Below, in pieces: positions 56,254-63,869 of a DNA stretch of 64,000 nt (position 1 is its first letter; every line of letters starts with the position of its first letter). Under the pieces are notes generated by a model, which did not search any database, had not been told where the DNA came from, and saw nothing but the letters and a program-made list of their open reading frames with translations. A program made the translations under genes and the position numbers. Location: NCBI GenBank assembly GCA_019694555.1, contig JAIBBS010000016.1, forward strand, positions 1 through 64,000, in the 5' to 3' direction. Source of the DNA: Nannocystaceae bacterium (GTDB lineage Bacteria > Myxococcota_A > Polyangia > Nannocystales > Nannocystaceae).

Positions 56254-59200
56254 TCAGCGCGCGAAGTTCAGCTCCTTGCGCAGCCGCAGGTACGGTTCGC
56301 TGACGCTGTAGGCCACGAGGTCGCGGATCCGTTCCTTCGCCGGGATCGGGCTGCCCTCGTCGCCCTCGCGCGTGAGGATCTGCGCCGCCACGTCGATGCT
56401 GTCCGACAACGCGAAGCCGGCCCGCGTCACGGTGTAGGCCACGCCGGCGAGCCACGCCCGCGCGTCGACGTCCCCGCTCTTGGCGAGCTTGGCCGTGAGC
56501 GCCTTGAGCGTCTCCAGCCGCGAGGCCTGCAGGAACTTCACGAACGCATCGCCGTAGGCCGCCGCCTGCGACTTGCAATCCAGCGGCACCGCGATCTCGG
56601 GTTGCGTCACCGCGATGGCGCCCCACGCCGCGTGGCGCAAGCTGGTCGCGGACGACAGCACCGCCGACAAGATGTGCTCGGGCTTGGCCCGCGCGATGAT
56701 GCGACCGGCGCGGAACTTGTTGCCGATCTCGGTCTGCTCGGACAGCGCGTCCTTGCCGGCGAAGATGCTGGGGTACACGGTGCGGTTGGGACCGCCGTCG
56801 ACGTCGGCGAGCGCGTCGACCTTGAAGCCGCCCTGCTCGTCGGGCTGCACGTACAGATCCGGCACCGGTGCGTCGAGCACCTGGCACGCGTGCGCGAGGT
56901 AGCGTGCGATCGCAGTCGGCGACTGCAGCGACACGTCGGTGCGGGCGTCACGACGCACGCGGTGGTGCGCGAGCGTCCGGCCCTCGCGCGCGGCGACCAT
57001 GGGCCACACGATCGCGAACACGTCCGACAGCCGCGACTCGACGTTGGGGTGTTGCAGCGCCTGTCGCCACAGCTCGCGCGAGATGGTGCCGCGGGCCTGC
57101 GCGCCCACGGTGCCCGACTCGGCCAGCTCGATCTCGGCCTCGTCGGCCTGCTTGAGGAATCGCAGCGTGCGCGCGATGGCCCGCGCGCGGTCGCGGCGGT
57201 TCATCTTCAAGTAGATCTCGACCAACCGGTGGTAGGTCTCGAACTCCATCGGTGTGGCCGAGATGAGCGCGTGGCCGTGCGCGACGGCCTTGTCGAGCTC
57301 GTCGTCGCCCAGCGCGATGGCCATGCGCATCGCCTTCTCGTGGCGCTTGCGCACCTGCTCGTCGCTCTCGCCCGCGGCCTGGGCCAGGCGCGCGGCCTGG
57401 TGGAACGCCATCAACGCGGTCTTGGCCTGATCGAGCCGCTCGTAGACCTCGCCCAGCCGCGTGAACAGCTCGAGGTGCTTGGCCGGCGGCGTGCCCTCGG
57501 GCAGCGACTTGAGCCGCGCACGGATCGCGCGACCGAGCTCCTTGTAGTCCTTGGTCTTCTCGAGCAGCTCGACGAACGCGACGTAGGCCTTCTCGTGGCT
57601 GGGGTCGCACTCCATCGTGCGCGACAGCCAGTCGCGCGCGGCGGTGAGGTCGTCGAGGTGATCGCGGATGATGACGGCGCCGGCGTAGAGGTACTTCGCG
57701 CGGATGACGTCGTTCTTCTGCGCGTCGGACAGGCGCGCGAGCACGTTGGTGGCGTCGCGCCAGCGCTGCGCCGCGGTGAACAGATCGAGGATCTTGTGCA
57801 GCACCGCCGGATCGTCGGGCACGATCGCGAGCACCTCTTCGAGCGTGCGCACGCCCTCCTCCAGCAGCTTGAGATCGTCGACCTGGGTCTTGGCGATCTC
57901 CTGCAGCACCGCGATGCGGCGCTGCTGCAGCTCCTTGGTCGCGGCGGGATCGTCCACGGCCTTCTCGCGGCGCGCGAGCAGATCGACCAGCTTGCGCTTG
58001 GCCTTCACCACCGCCGCGGCCCCGCCGGCGCCGGCGGACAGCTCGATCATGCGATCGACCGCGGCCTCGTTGTCGGGGTCGATGTCGAGCGCGCGCTCGA
58101 GCATCTGCACCGCCTTGGGCTTCTCGTCCATGCCCAGGCGCGCGTCGGCCATGCGCACGTACAGGCGCGACAGCTCGCCCGGCGCGAGCTTGTCGCCCAC
58201 GCCCAGCACCACCGACTGGTAGTGCCGCAGCGCGTCGGCGAACTTGCCCGCGTCCATGTCGAGCTCGGCCAACAGCCGCAGCACGTCGAGGTTGGTGGCA
58301 TCGAGCGCGCGGGCCTTCTCGAGGTACTCGCGCGCGCGATCCTTGGCGTCGACCGCGAGCGCGCAGCGACCCGCCAGCGACAGCGCGCGCAGGTTGAGCG
58401 CGTGGTCGCCGGGCTGCTGCGATCGCACCTGCATGACGTAGATCTGCGCCTGCGGCCACGCGCGCGACAGATCGCCGTGGGCGACCAGCCGCTCGAGCAA
58501 GATGCCGGTGGCGTCGCGATGATCGGGGTCGAGCTCGACGACCTCTTCGAGCAGCGCGAGCCCGCGGTCGGGCTTGCCGAGCTCGTCGACGTAGGTCTTG
58601 CCGGCGTCGAACAACAGCTTCACCTTCTCCACGCGATTGCCGTGGCTGCGCGCCGCGGCGACCTGGGCCTCGATGGCCTTGAGCGGCTGGTCGTTGCTGG
58701 CGTACAGCTCGCGCAGCTGCAGCCACGCGTCGGTGAGCGAGGGATCGAGCGCGACCGCCTGCTCGAGCGCCTCGACCGCGCCCTCGACCTTGCCGATCTC
58801 CTGCCGCAAGATGCCGCCGCGCAGCAGCAGCTCGGCCTTGCGCTTGGGATCGGTCTCGGCGTCGACCTGCGCGCGGATCAGCGGTCCGGCGCGCTTGAAG
58901 TCGTCGGCCGCGAGGTAGCGCTCGAGCAGCTCGTCGCGCCACTTGGTCTCGCTGGGCTGCAGCTTCACCAGCTGCTCGAGCGCTTCGACCACCGCGCCAT
59001 CGGCCGCGTCCTCGGACTTGCGCAGCTCGAGCAGACGCTGCCACGCCTCGGCACGGAAGCCCTCGTCGGCGTCGACCGCCTGGGCCTGGCGCTGCCACAG
59101 CTTGGCCAGCGCCGCGCGGTCGTCCTGGCGCCGGTACCACTTCACCAGCGCCGCAGCGGCCTCGCGCGCCAGCGCATGCTCGGCGCCGACGAGCTCGAGC

Positions 59201-62200
59201 AGGCGCTCGCGGCAATCGGCCGCGCGCTCCTTGCCGTCGACCTCGAGATCGAGCAAGCCGGCCTGTTCCGCCAGCAACGCCGCGCGCTCGGTCGGCGCCT
59301 CGACCAGATCGATCCACGTCGCGAGTGCGTCGACCAGCAGCGTGCGCTTGCCGGCGTCGCGTGCGACCGCCTCGCGCAGCGCGAGCACCAGCTGCTCGGC
59401 CGCGCTGCGATCGTCGGGCTTGCGCTGCAACAGCTTGCCCAGCAGCTCGAGTCGACGCTCGCCCTCGCCGGCCTCGGCCGCCAGCGACGCGGCCTCGCGC
59501 AGCTTCGCCACCGCATCGCCGTCGGCGAGCGCCGCGTGGGCCCGCCGCGCGAGGATGTCGATCAGCGCGGCGCGGCGATCGAGCGCACGCGCCAGCGACT
59601 CGCCGGCGGCCAGCGCGTCGGCGTGATCGGGGTCCTCGGCCAGCACGATCTCGATCGCACCGAATGCACCCTCCTCGTCGCCGAGGCTCTCGCGCAGCGC
59701 CTTCGCGGCCGCGACCAGCGACGCGTGGCGATCACCGGCCTTCTGCAGATCCGCCAGCGACAGCAGCGCGCCCACGAGCTCGGCGTCGCGGCCGAGCTTG
59801 CGGTACAGCGGCACCACCGCGGACAGCGTCTGCGCGCTGGGCACCAGCTCGTTGGCCTTCTCGTACGCCGCGACGGCGCGGTCGGTGGCGCCGAGCTTGT
59901 CGAGGAACACCGCGCCCAGCTCACCGAACAACGCCGCCTGGGCGCTGGTGTCGCTGGTGCGCTCGGCCACGATCATCATGCTGTCGGCCAGCTGCGACCA
60001 CTGGCCCGTGAGCTCGGCGAGGCGGCGCAGATCGGCGATGGCCGCCGGCTGTTCGCTCGCGGGCAGCACCTCGATGAGGCCTTGCACGATCTCGAAGGCG
60101 TTGGCCGGCGCGGCCAGGCGCAGCTCGTAGATCTCGGCGAGCTCGCGGATGATCGCGATGCGATCGCGCACCACCTGCGCGATCGACAGCCGCACCTTGA
60201 GCGCCTCGGCCACGCGATCCCAGCGCGCGGCCTCGCGGGCCGCGGCCTCGATGCGCGCGACCGCGGCGCGGGCCTCGGTGTGCGTCGGCTTGCGCTCGAG
60301 GATCCACGCCCACGCCTCGAGGTCGTCGGGATCCTCGGGCGCGAGGAACTTCTGCCCCAGCGGCGCGGACACGGCCTCCTCGACCGGTTGCGGCACCGCA
60401 CCGTCGCCCGAGCCGCGATCGACCACGGGCTTGGGTGTGCCGGCGCGCGACAGATCGACCACGCGCTCGCGGCCGGGTCCGGCCTCGGCCTCGGCGCGCA
60501 TCGCCGCACCGAGCTCGGGCGTCGCGAGGATCTGCGCCAGGCCCTCGCCGAGCTCGCCCAGGCTCGGGCGCTCGCTGGGCAGCGGATGCAGCGCGCGACG
60601 CAGCAGCGGGTCGACGCGCGGATCGAGCTCGCGGTTGCGATCGTGCGCCGGCGGCACCGCGCCCAGCGGCGCGCGCCCGGTCAGCAGCCGGTAGCACAGC
60701 GCCGCGAGCGAGTAGACGTCGCTCGCCGCGGTCGCGACGCCCTCGCGCAGGAGCTCGGGCGCGGTGTAGCCGAGGTTCGACGCGCGCACCGACGGGCGCG
60801 CCCAACCGATCACCGGTGGGAAGCCGAAGCCACGCAGCACCGCGCCGTGACCCGCGACCAACACGTTGTGCGGGTTGAGGTTGCGATGCAGCACGCCCGC
60901 GGCGTGGCAGGCCGCGAGGCCCTGCACCAGCGGTTGCACGATCTCGAGCGCCTTCGCCAGCGACATCGGCTCGTCGTCGAGCGACTCGCCCAGCAGCAGG
61001 CCCGGCGTCGGCTCGCGCATGATGCCGAACAGTCGGCCGTCGGCGAAGCCACCGCGCACGCCCTTGACCGCGGGATGATCGAGCGCCGCGAGCTTCTGCA
61101 CCGCGGCGTGGAAGCGCGTGTGCTCCTGCTCGCCGACCGGACGCGCCAACGTGGCGACCGCGACCTCGAGATCGGTCTTGGTCTCGCGATCGCGGCACAG
61201 CAGCAGCATGCCGGTGCCGGTCATGCCCAGCACCTCGCGCAGCTCGAAGCGCGGCGGCACCAACGCGAGGCTGCGATCGGCCTCGGCGCAACCGACCAGG
61301 CCGTCGAGCGCGGCCGCGCGATCGCCCTCGATCGCGGCGGCCCACGCGAGATCGAAGCGCGCGATGTTGCTGTACTCGCGACCAGCACCGTGGGTGATGA
61401 CCTGCTGGAAGCACTTGCGAGCGCGCTCGATGCGGCCGTGTGCCAACAGCACGCAGCCGGTCCGCAGCAGCGTCGCGGGCGGCAGCTCGGCCACACCGCC
61501 ACCGCCGGGCGGCAGCGCGTCGATGAGGTTCTCGATCCACGCGACGTCGAGCGTGAGTGCCTCGTCGCGCGCGAGGTCGGCGCGCAGCTCGATGCCACGG
61601 GTGACGCGGGCGAGATCCAGTGCCACCAGGCGGTCGCCGGCGGCGCTGGGCCGCGCCGCGACCTCGGCGCACGCGCGCGCGAGCTCGTCGAACAGCGCCG
61701 GCAGGCTGCGATCGGCCGCGCCGGGCACGACCTCGATCGCGAAGCGATCGCGCAGTTCCTCGGCCTCGGGCGGCGTCACCCACGGCAGCAGCGCGTAGTG
61801 GGTGTTGCCGCGACCGATGCGGTCGAGCAGATCGAAGATCTGCACGAGATCGGGATCGTCCGGGTCGAAGCCCAGGAACAGGATCGTGCGCGTGCGCGCG
61901 ACCTCTTCGACGAGATCGAAGAACACGCCGTCGGCACGCATCGCGCGGCCGGTCGGCGGCGTGCGCAGGATGAAGAACTTCTCGTGCTCGCGCAGCGACA
62001 AGTGGTGCACGTCGACGTGCGACAGCACCGCGGGCTTGTGGCCGCCCGAGGACGAGAAGATGCGCGAGACCAGATCGGGATACGCGGTGGCGAAGCATGC
62101 ACGCCACGGCAGCTCCGCCAGCTTGGTCGCGCCCTCGGCCAGGCTCGCGCCCTCGCCCTCGGTCGAGATCTCCTTGAGCAGCTTTGCCAGCGGTTCGTCA

Positions 62201-62421
62201 CCGAAGTGCCGGTGCACGTACGTCAGCACCGTGCGCCAGCGACCCTGCTCGATCAGATCGCCGAGCGCGTCGCGGGCCGAGGCCTCGCAGGTGGGCACGA
62301 GGCGGCGGAGCAGTTGCTCCCAGTTGGGTCGACCGGCGAGGCTGCCGAAGCCTGCACCGACCCAAAGGACACAGTCGCCGGACGAAATGGCGCGCGCGAG
62401 CTCGACGGGAATCTGGGACAT
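56254..62421 (-). CDS. Giant SIR2-like / pseudokinase / TPR protein
   Basis: 2055 residues, no signal peptide or membrane span. Residues 5-250 resemble a SIR2_2 domain: VLWVGAGFGSLAGRPNW, then LFLGFDPDDPDLVQI at 181-195. The usual TTNYD reads FATAYPD (110-116) and the usual HG reads ILRTPP, so the catalytic Asn and His are absent. Residues 392-635 form a kinase fold: G-loop GMTGTG, VAVAT in place of VAVK, HRNLNPHN in place of HRDxKPxN, GFG in place of DFG, and an intact TAPEL and ASDVYSLA, so a pseudokinase. Residues 690-1780 are TPR-like repeats. The last 270 residues resemble the C-terminal domain of other large myxobacterial TPR proteins. ATG 62436 is a second possible start. Confidence 0.8.
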   Translation of the reverse strand: MSQIPVELARAISSGDCVLWVGAGFGSLAGRPNWEQLLRRLVPTCEASARDALGDLIEQGRWRTVLTYVHRHFGDEPLAKLLKEISTEGEGASLAEGATKLAELPWRACFATAYPDLVSRIFSSSGGHKPAVLSHVDVHHLSLREHEKFFILRTPPTGRAMRADGVFFDLVEEVARTRTILFLGFDPDDPDLVQIFDLLDRIGRGNTHYALLPWVTPPEAEELRDRFAIEVVPGAADRSLPALFDELARACAEVAARPSAAGDRLVALDLARVTRGIELRADLARDEALTLDVAWIENLIDALPPGGGGVAELPPATLLRTGCVLLAHGRIERARKCFQQVITHGAGREYSNIARFDLAWAAAIEGDRAAALDGLVGCAEADRSLALVPPRFELREVLGMTGTGMLLLCRDRETKTDLEVAVATLARPVGEQEHTRFHAAVQKLAALDHPAVKGVRGGFADGRLFGIMREPTPGLLLGESLDDEPMSLAKALEIVQPLVQGLAACHAAGVLHRNLNPHNVLVAGHGAVLRGFGFPPVIGWARPSVRASNLGYTAPELLREGVATAASDVYSLAALCYRLLTGRAPLGAVPPAHDRNRELDPRVDPLLRRALHPLPSERPSLGELGEGLAQILATPELGAAMRAEAEAGPGRERVVDLSRAGTPKPVVDRGSGDGAVPQPVEEAVSAPLGQKFLAPEDPDDLEAWAWILERKPTHTEARAAVARIEAAAREAARWDRVAEALKVRLSIAQVVRDRIAIIRELAEIYELRLAAPANAFEIVQGLIEVLPASEQPAAIADLRRLAELTGQWSQLADSMMIVAERTSDTSAQAALFGELGAVFLDKLGATDRAVAAYEKANELVPSAQTLSAVVPLYRKLGRDAELVGALLSLADLQKAGDRHASLVAAAKALRESLGDEEGAFGAIEIVLAEDPDHADALAAGESLARALDRRAALIDILARRAHAALADGDAVAKLREAASLAAEAGEGERRLELLGKLLQRKPDDRSAAEQLVLALREAVARDAGKRTLLVDALATWIDLVEAPTERAALLAEQAGLLDLEVDGKERAADCRERLLELVGAEHALAREAAAALVKWYRRQDDRAALAKLWQRQAQAVDADEGFRAEAWQRLLELRKSEDAADGAVVEALEQLVKLQPSETKWRDELLERYLAADDFKRAGPLIRAQVDAETDPKRKAELLLRGGILRQEIGKVEGAVEALEQAVALDPSLTDAWLQLRELYASNDQPLKAIEAQVAAARSHGNRVEKVKLLFDAGKTYVDELGKPDRGLALLEEVVELDPDHRDATGILLERLVAHGDLSRAWPQAQIYVMQVRSQQPGDHALNLRALSLAGRCALAVDAKDRAREYLEKARALDATNLDVLRLLAELDMDAGKFADALRHYQSVVLGVGDKLAPGELSRLYVRMADARLGMDEKPKAVQMLERALDIDPDNEAAVDRMIELSAGAGGAAAVVKAKRKLVDLLARREKAVDDPAATKELQQRRIAVLQEIAKTQVDDLKLLEEGVRTLEEVLAIVPDDPAVLHKILDLFTAAQRWRDATNVLARLSDAQKNDVIRAKYLYAGAVIIRDHLDDLTAARDWLSRTMECDPSHEKAYVAFVELLEKTKDYKELGRAIRARLKSLPEGTPPAKHLELFTRLGEVYERLDQAKTALMAFHQAARLAQAAGESDEQVRKRHEKAMRMAIALGDDELDKAVAHGHALISATPMEFETYHRLVEIYLKMNRRDRARAIARTLRFLKQADEAEIELAESGTVGAQARGTISRELWRQALQHPNVESRLSDVFAIVWPMVAAREGRTLAHHRVRRDARTDVSLQSPTAIARYLAHACQVLDAPVPDLYVQPDEQGGFKVDALADVDGGPNRTVYPSIFAGKDALSEQTEIGNKFRAGRIIARAKPEHILSAVLSSATSLRHAAWGAIAVTQPEIAVPLDCKSQAAAYGDAFVKFLQASRLETLKALTAKLAKSGDVDARAWLAGVAYTVTRAGFALSDSIDVAAQILTREGDEGSPIPAKERIRDLVAYSVSEPYLRLRKELNFAR

Positions 62422-62642
62422 GAGAGCGGCCGGCATGGTCGCACGTTCGCCCCACCGCGTCGATGCGCGCGGGGCCGGGCGGCGACGCGCTGCGCACGGG
62501 TGGTGACGGCGCTGCGCTGGGGTGGTGACGGCGCTGCGCTGGGGTGGTGACGGCGCTGCGCTGGGGTGGTGATGGCGCTGCGCTGGGCTGGTGATGGCGC
62601 TGCGCTGGGCTGGTGATCCCGCCGCCGGGCGCGGGCGTTTCG
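62422..62642. other. Leader region of the giant SIR2-like gene
   Basis: 221 bp between two minus-strand genes. Holds five copies of a 22-bp repeat (separate entry). No -10 box adjacent to the start; no gene. Confidence 0.6.
62498..62617. repeat. 22-bp tandem repeat upstream of the giant SIR2-like gene
   Basis: Five full copies plus ten bases of a 22-bp unit (plus strand GGGTGGTGACGGCGCTGCGC + TG). Copies 1-3 are identical, copies 4-5 have one or two changes. 22 bp is not a multiple of three and is about two helical turns, so a regulatory rather than coding role is likely. Confidence 0.9.
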
Positions 62643-63869
62643 TCAGCGCTCGGCGTCGTCGCGTGCGGGATCGAAGCGGGTGCCGTCGGCCAGCGCGATG
62701 GGCTCCGCTTCGATCGCGACGCCATGTTCGCGCAGGGTCTCGTCGAGCAACTGCGCGACCTGGGCGACCACCTTGGTGCAGAACTGGTGACGCGCGGGTC
62801 CGGTGAACTCGCCGTGCGGCGCGGTCATGTCGTTGCACACCGTCGACGCGACGCCGCCGCGATCGAGCTCGTCGCGGACGCGCGCGAGGTAGCGTGTCAT
62901 CGCGGCGCGCAGCTGCGGTGTGACCTTGCCGGTGGGATCGGGGTCGCCGAGCAGCTCGCCCAGCAGCAGCTGCCCGGCCACGATCGCACCGCAGGTGCCC
63001 TCGCCGGTGATGCCGCCGCGGCGCAGCGACTGGTACGCGGGCGTCGGGCGACCGAAGGCCTCGGCCAGCGCGATGCCGCAGGAGCGGTGGGGCGTGCGCG
63101 TGCCCTCGTAGAGCACGAACGCGCGTCGACGCAGGGGGCCGCGGGGCAGCTCGTCGCTCATCGCACCGCCATCATGACAGCTCGGCGCGGCCGACCCAAG
63201 CGGGACGCACCAGGACTCGACCACGGTGTCGGGCCACGGCACCGTCGGCGAGAAGCGCGGGCGATCGAAGCGGCCCGCCGCGATCGCCGTCGCGAGCGCG
63301 TCGTCGACGATCGCATCGCGAAGCGGGCGCTGCTCGCACGGCAGCGGTACCACGCCGGCGCCGATCGGCGGGCGCGCCAGCAACAGGTGCTCGAGCAGCG
63401 CGTGGCCGAAGCACACCACGCCGAGGTCCCCGCTTCGCACCGCGCGATCCATCGCGGCCACGTCGCCGCCGTCGCGCGCGCGCTCGAACACCGCCAGCGC
63501 CGACGCGGGACCCGCGACCACCAGCGCCGCCTCGTCGAGCAGCGTGAGCGCGTCCTGCTCGGGCGTGCGCCGGCCCGCGGCGGCGGGGTCCCGCAACGCG
63601 TGCATGCGCAGGTGCAGCGCCGCCTTCGCCGCCGGAAAGCGCGCGAAGGTGGCGAGGTTGAACGCGTCGTGCCACGAGCCCTCGCGCGTGGGGATCTCGC
63701 CGCGTACGACCGCGTCCTCGTACGGTCCCGGCGGTGCCATGCGCCAGCGCGTGCCCGCGAGCAGGCCCTGCAACACGTCGCGATCCGGCGCGCCGACGTG
63801 CGCGAGCGCGCCGTGGCGCCGAGCCACGGTCGCGAGCGGCACGTGGCGCGCGAACGCAGCGGCGATCAC
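62643..63869 (-). CDS. DUF3025 / C_GCAxxG_C_C fusion protein
   Basis: 408 residues from GTG 63869. Residues 1-235 look like DUF3025: IPTREGSWHDAFNLATFARF with PAAKAALHLRMHAL. Residues 237-408 look like the C_GCAxxG_C_C redox family: SCGIALAEAFG, GGITGEGTCGAIVAGQLLLG, STVCNDM, QFCTKVVAQVAQL, with four spaced Cys. There is no stop between them. The second part could also start alone at ATG 63161, which has CATGAT 9 nt upstream. The GTG overlaps the stop of the preceding gene (GTGA), so translation is coupled. Function of neither domain is established. Confidence 0.7.
   Translation of the reverse strand: MIAAAFARHVPLATVARRHGALAHVGAPDRDVLQGLLAGTRWRMAPPGPYEDAVVRGEIPTREGSWHDAFNLATFARFPAAKAALHLRMHALRDPAAAGRRTPEQDALTLLDEAALVVAGPASALAVFERARDGGDVAAMDRAVRSGDLGVVCFGHALLEHLLLARPPIGAGVVPLPCEQRPLRDAIVDDALATAIAAGRFDRPRFSPTVPWPDTVVESWCVPLGSAAPSCHDGGAMSDELPRGPLRRRAFVLYEGTRTPHRSCGIALAEAFGRPTPAYQSLRRGGITGEGTCGAIVAGQLLLGELLGDPDPTGKVTPQLRAAMTRYLARVRDELDRGGVASTVCNDMTAPHGEFTGPARHQFCTKVVAQVAQLLDETLREHGVAIEAEPIALADGTRFDPARDDAER

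Follow-up and report, generated by a model that had tools for sequence, protein, structure and literature searches.

A giant TPR protein of a Nannocystaceae bacterium carries SIR2-like and kinase-like domains that lack canonical catalytic residues

Introduction

The described protein closest to the N-terminal region considered here is ThsA, the SIR2_2 NADase of the Thoeris system. The N112A variant of ThsA retains its fold and oligomeric state but neither binds nor cleaves NAD+, and the H152A variant does not bind NAD+ (PMC7272460). In terms of the C-terminal half, the nearest described protein is GltI (AgmK) of the gliding machinery of Myxococcus xanthus; in the table of M. xanthus glt genes, gltI encodes a protein of 4132 aa, gltD and gltE encode TPR proteins, and gltG encodes an FHA protein (PMC3169522). 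Here, we describe a protein in which a ThsA-like domain, a domain with the fold of the Hanks-type Ser/Thr kinases, and a GltI-like C-terminal half are joined in one polypeptide, a domain combination for which our search of open-access papers returned no example.

Results

Gene and domain organization

The window is a 64,000-nucleotide stretch of contig JAIBBS010000016.1 from a Nannocystaceae bacterium. The gene is a single uninterrupted open reading frame on the minus strand (62421–56254) of 2055 codons, and its product of 2055 aa begins with MSQIP, a start that coincides with those of its orthologues (MVHIP, MVKIP, and MTQIP). No signal peptide or membrane segment is predicted. The initial annotation described about 1100 residues of TPR, which Pfam TPR families place at about 701–1790; a C-terminal domain (about 1790–2055), conserved among relatives, was absent from that description. 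The features are as follows.

56254..62421, minus strand: whole gene, 2055 aa plus stop; full-length orthologues (L001–L003) are 64–73% identical
61642..62421, minus strand: SIR2_2/ThsA-like domain, residues 1–260, catalytic residues lost; profile versus ThsA (6lhx) 1.5e-30; AlphaFold2 (AF2) mean pLDDT 92.6 for residues 1–660
62083..62085, minus strand: Ala113 codon, at the position of the ThsA catalytic Asn112 in the profile alignment; 33 of 34 members lack Asn
61954..61968, minus strand: LRTPP (152–156), HG loop with the ThsA His152 position deleted, by sequence/profile alignment
61267..61641, minus strand: helical/TPR linker, residues 261–385; Pfam TPR matches at 317–372, AF2 helices
60517..61266, minus strand: pseudokinase domain, residues 386–635; Pfam 4e-18, Foldseek PknB 1e-13; VAIK Lys, αC Glu, HRD Asp, and DFG Asp lost
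57055..60321, minus strand: TPR array, residues about 701–1789, from Pfam TPR families
56257..57054, minus strand: C-terminal domain, residues about 1790–2055, probably degenerate M48-like; common to GltI-like proteins, AF2 pLDDT 94.2, hhalign to M48 90%, 1.5e-6
62643..63869, minus strand: upstream neighbour, DUF3025 + C_GCAxxG_C_C fusion, conserved in the neighbourhood comparison among relatives

A GC-rich tandem repeat of 22 bp (5.9 copies, 96% alike) occupies 62487–62616, in the interval that separates the start of the giant gene from the DUF3025 gene.

The SIR2-like domain

A SIR2_2-like domain had been proposed for the N-terminus on the basis of GAGFGSLAGRPNW (22–34) and LFLGFDPDDPD (181–191), and both motifs are present as read. 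As a single sequence, the domain scores 20.3 bits against Pfam SIR2_2, below the curated cut-off of 24.5 bits; a profile built from degenerate relatives only (n = 21) matches ThsA over the whole SIR2 domain, with KomC, DSR2, and FAM118B as the next matches. The SIR2 fold is assigned from this sequence profile, the 50 best Foldseek matches listed for residues 1–660 all being kinases.

The catalytic positions also read as the initial annotation had claimed, with ATAYPD (111–116) at the TTNYD position and ILRTPP (151–156) at the HG position. Ala113 aligns with ThsA Asn112, and the position of ThsA His152 is Leu or Phe in the family, with the loop deleted in the family of the window (f1). Asn and His occur together in none of the 34 SIR2-fused family members; L069, the sole member to keep Asn, lacks His, and four others (L074, L075, L076, and L087) have His without Asn. 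Four stand-alone SIR2 proteins of the same class (L088, L095, L101, and L103) have both residues. This distribution shows that loss of the SIR2 active site is old. The giant protein aligns with ThsA along the whole SIR2 domain but differs in its lack of Asn112 and His152 equivalents, in its lack of SLOG, and in its fusion to kinase and TPR regions. As the natural equivalent of ThsA N112A, the Ala113 domain would be expected to be a non-binding structural module.

The kinase-like domain

The kinase-like domain is recognized by Pfam (Pkinase, 4e-18 over residues 393–594), by a sequence match to PknB at 5e-20, and by Foldseek matches of the AF2 model to PknB-type kinases at 1e-13. Structure prediction and search, which had been proposed as a check on both N-terminal folds, thus bore out the kinase; the SIR2 fold is supported by the profile and not by the structure matches listed. 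The domain shares the full fold of Hanks-type Ser/Thr kinases (PknB, PknA, and StkP) but lacks their VAIK Lys, HRD Asp, and DFG Asp, the corresponding stretches being VAVA, HRN514, and GFG531, in agreement with the initial annotation. The VAIK Lys position is Ala421, and αC Glu is also lost (Ala439).

Within f1, the VAIK Lys is missing in all copies, an intact DFG is found in none, and the HRD Asp is variable; loss of the kinase site is thus fixed in this lineage. By contrast, L074–L076 of families f10 and f13 retain Lys (VTVKV, LTLKV), αC Glu, the Asp of HLD, Asn, and the Asp of DFR. The idea that the residues might be lost throughout the homologues therefore holds for the SIR2 Asn (33 of 34) and for the Lys and DFG Asp of the f1 kinase and fails for the kinases of L074–L076. 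In a tree with 35 other kinases, the fused kinases form one group (support 90, not starred); given this grouping, a single acquisition followed by loss of the catalytic residues in f1 would be the simplest history. Inactivation probably came after fusion, as fused kinases in two other families keep the full K, E, D, N, D set.

A second kinase encoded in the window, of 692 aa, is not fused to SIR2. The genome itself is kinase-rich, with 129 matches to the query, mostly Ser/Thr kinases.

The C-terminal domain and GltI-like paralogues

The C-terminal domain, modelled by AF2 with a pLDDT of 94.2, is found in all 144 class genomes; in the phylum as a whole, 68 of 113 genomes have a match, some of these matches being weak. 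In many genomes, it ends a TPR protein of 3300–4200 aa, and elsewhere in the phylum it is carried by proteins of about 3900–4200 aa. On contig C320 of the same genome, TPR and FHA genes precede the gene for a paralogue of 4003 aa, an arrangement that resembles the glt cluster; the proposed orthology of this paralogue to GltI is based on length, domain, and gene order. The C320 region (21011–49756, L099/L100) encodes two FHA proteins, TPR proteins, and the 4003-aa GltI-like protein, and an FHA-GAF-cyclase gene adjoins it.

Like GltI of M. xanthus gliding (PMC3169522), the protein described here is a giant TPR protein without a predicted signal peptide or membrane segment, and, in comparisons with GltI-like paralogues of the phylum, its C-terminal domain is also the one that closes these proteins of about 4000 aa. 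It differs from GltI in being half as long, in having SIR2-like and kinase-like domains, and in belonging to a separate clade, the split between GltI-like and SIR2-bearing proteins having a support of 95 in a quick tree. Furthermore, its gene lies outside a glt-like cluster, flanked by genes for DUF3025 and Tim44-like proteins, whereas the 4003-aa paralogue holds the cluster-like place. The sequence comparisons establish paralogy for the C-terminal domain, and the TPR array and C-terminal domain together appear paralogous to GltI/AgmK-like proteins.

Searched by sequence against Pfam and the PDB, the C-terminal domain matched TPRs only and gave no Pfam family of its own. Profile comparison with hhalign relates it to M48 peptidases (90%, 1.5e-6; negative controls 0.11 and 0.6), and the active-site and ExxADR helices align with those of M48 metallopeptidases from the same genome (L104–L108). 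In this alignment, the HExxH helix reads xGRxxA and ExxADR reads DLTAxRAG. The domain differs from M48 enzymes in its lack of HExxH and of a confident Foldseek match (E above 0.3, with Ste24 at rank 22 and BepA at rank 37). HExxH is present in none of the aligned C-terminal-domain rows that cover the motif, and a search for a member with an intact motif found none. An M48 origin of the domain is, on these profile similarities, likely.

Family architectures and selection

Three proteins share the architecture of the giant protein with 64–73% identity over their whole length, all in myxobacterial (Deltaproteobacteria/Myxococcales) metagenome assemblies. The N-terminal 377 residues have matches in 91 of 290 class genomes, part of these matches being stand-alone SIR2 proteins. 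Three architectures are seen: SIR2, kinase, TPR, and C-terminal domain in about 2000 aa (f1, f10, and f13); SIR2, TPR, and C-terminal domain without kinase in about 1600–1700 aa (many other families of the class); and SIR2 plus kinase alone in about 650–700 aa (four genomes, with no tail nearby). In L081, L089, and L090, the SIR2 domain, the kinase, or both are lost or eroded. Four genomes thus have a tail-less SIR2–kinase pair, and in others the tail occurs without SIR2 or kinase; both cases fit a set of binding modules and not one enzyme. In L083 (6892–12624 and 7824–8600), the end that encodes the C-terminal domain lies in a different frame from the SIR2–TPR part, a frameshift or an assembly error.

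Every domain of the giant protein is under purifying selection. The dN/dS ratios against the three orthologues are 0.30, 0.46, and 0.28, values inflated by strong codon bias, which leads to underestimation of dS; dN of the SIR2 domain is the lowest or near-lowest among the domains. Within f1, a recognizable SIR2–kinase pair is found in 14 of 29 genomes, and the gene is missing from genus g10.

Genomic neighbourhood

The conserved neighbours of the giant gene are the DUF3025 + C_GCAxxG gene just upstream and an M20 peptidase gene further on, none of them defence-like. The gene that fuses DUF3025 with the redox-like C_GCAxxG_C_C domain also adjoins tail-less relatives. In several genomes, directly downstream of kinase-less relatives lie genes for a putative secreted family with CGNG...DCD (DUF4215-like; L078, 4000–5181; L079, 5565–6542; L086, 11820–12770).

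Among the flanking genes tested, there was no defence match except a generic kinase. The giant protein has no SLOG match in Pfam, and no SLOG or TIR partner (ThsB) was found among the conserved neighbours tested. For the SIR2 part, searches of plasmids and viral contigs returned no close relative, phages giving matches to the kinase region only.

Discussion

We consider it probable that the giant protein is a non-enzymatic scaffold of the cytoplasm, its location, docking role, and lack of catalysis being what we infer from the features described above. The TPR array and C-terminal domain are paralogous to the GltI/AgmK-like giant TPR proteins that occur across the phylum, and the N-terminus has a ThsA-type SIR2 domain, with the Asn already gone in nearly all sampled fused members. 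Some lineages also carry a Ser/Thr kinase, its residues kept in two families and lost in that of the window. The dead SIR2 and kinase domains would most likely serve in oligomerization and docking, with the TPR array recruiting partner proteins, for which the Glt proteins and the DUF3025 neighbour may be the first candidates. Against the scaffold reading, L069 retains the SIR2 Asn (though not the His), absence of the gene from whole genera such as g10 suggests that its role is dispensable, and unusual catalysis persists in some pseudoenzymes, such as SelO-type kinases.

A more elaborate proposal, which we regard as possible though doubtful, is a signalling hub in which SIR2 NADase, Ser/Thr kinase, and M48 peptidase folds are joined to a motility-type TPR scaffold, each as a binding module, with the dead SIR2 domain as a regulated oligomerization platform. 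An improbable rival of the scaffold is a sensor in which the dead SIR2 pocket, the kinase pocket, or both bind NAD+, ADP-ribose, or ATP and thereby switch the TPR cargo. Such a sensor could draw on two residues that are invariant in the SIR2 profile, Gly22 in the GAG loop and Asp189 in GFxxxDP, on the slow evolution of the SIR2 domain, and on a G-loop-like stretch and Asn519, the latter kept in the nearest orthologues, in the kinase. However, other GAG-loop residues are lost in several SIR2 relatives, neither of the ThsA variants, N112A or H152A, binds NAD+ (PMC7272460), and the kinase has neither Lys nor the DFG Asp; on these grounds, by analogy, binding of NAD+ or Mg-ATP by the N-terminus is unlikely. 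Of the suggestion that the protein is a nucleotide-binding scaffold, decoy, or sensor, the scaffold part agrees with the presence of both folds and the loss of both sites, and nucleotide binding does not agree with the behaviour of the ThsA variants.

We give little credence to an unconventional enzyme, in which the kinase or SIR2 fold would act without canonical residues or be activated by a partner. The human sirtuins FAM118A and FAM118B become markedly more active on interacting, but they have the Asn, and their Ala mutants were termed catalytically inactive (PMC12700824); likewise, the f10/f13 relatives keep all of the kinase residues, but the family of the window is without the kinase Lys, the DFG Asp, and the SIR2 His together. 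An anti-phage function, as a decoy or regulator that originated in a defence system of the Thoeris-like or kinase type, is just as improbable. It would be consistent with ThsA as the closest match of the SIR2 domain and with matches to PADLOC models, the ThsA one weak, but the PADLOC kinase matches are generic and neither SLOG nor a TIR partner was found. The anti-phage frame in which the initial annotation had placed these folds is not upheld by the non-defence M20 peptidase and DUF3025 neighbours, by flanks in which the one defence match is a generic kinase, or by the searches for close plasmid or viral relatives.

A SIR2 or kinase match alone is thus insufficient to call a defence gene. A phylum-wide C-terminal domain, with no Pfam family of its own in our searches, is now marked on GltI-like gliding proteins. 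Bacterial SIR2 folds are usually read as NADase effectors, and here a dead one is maintained across a class under selection. The fused kinase, which occurs both with and without its catalytic residues, provides natural before-and-after pairs for the change from enzyme to scaffold.
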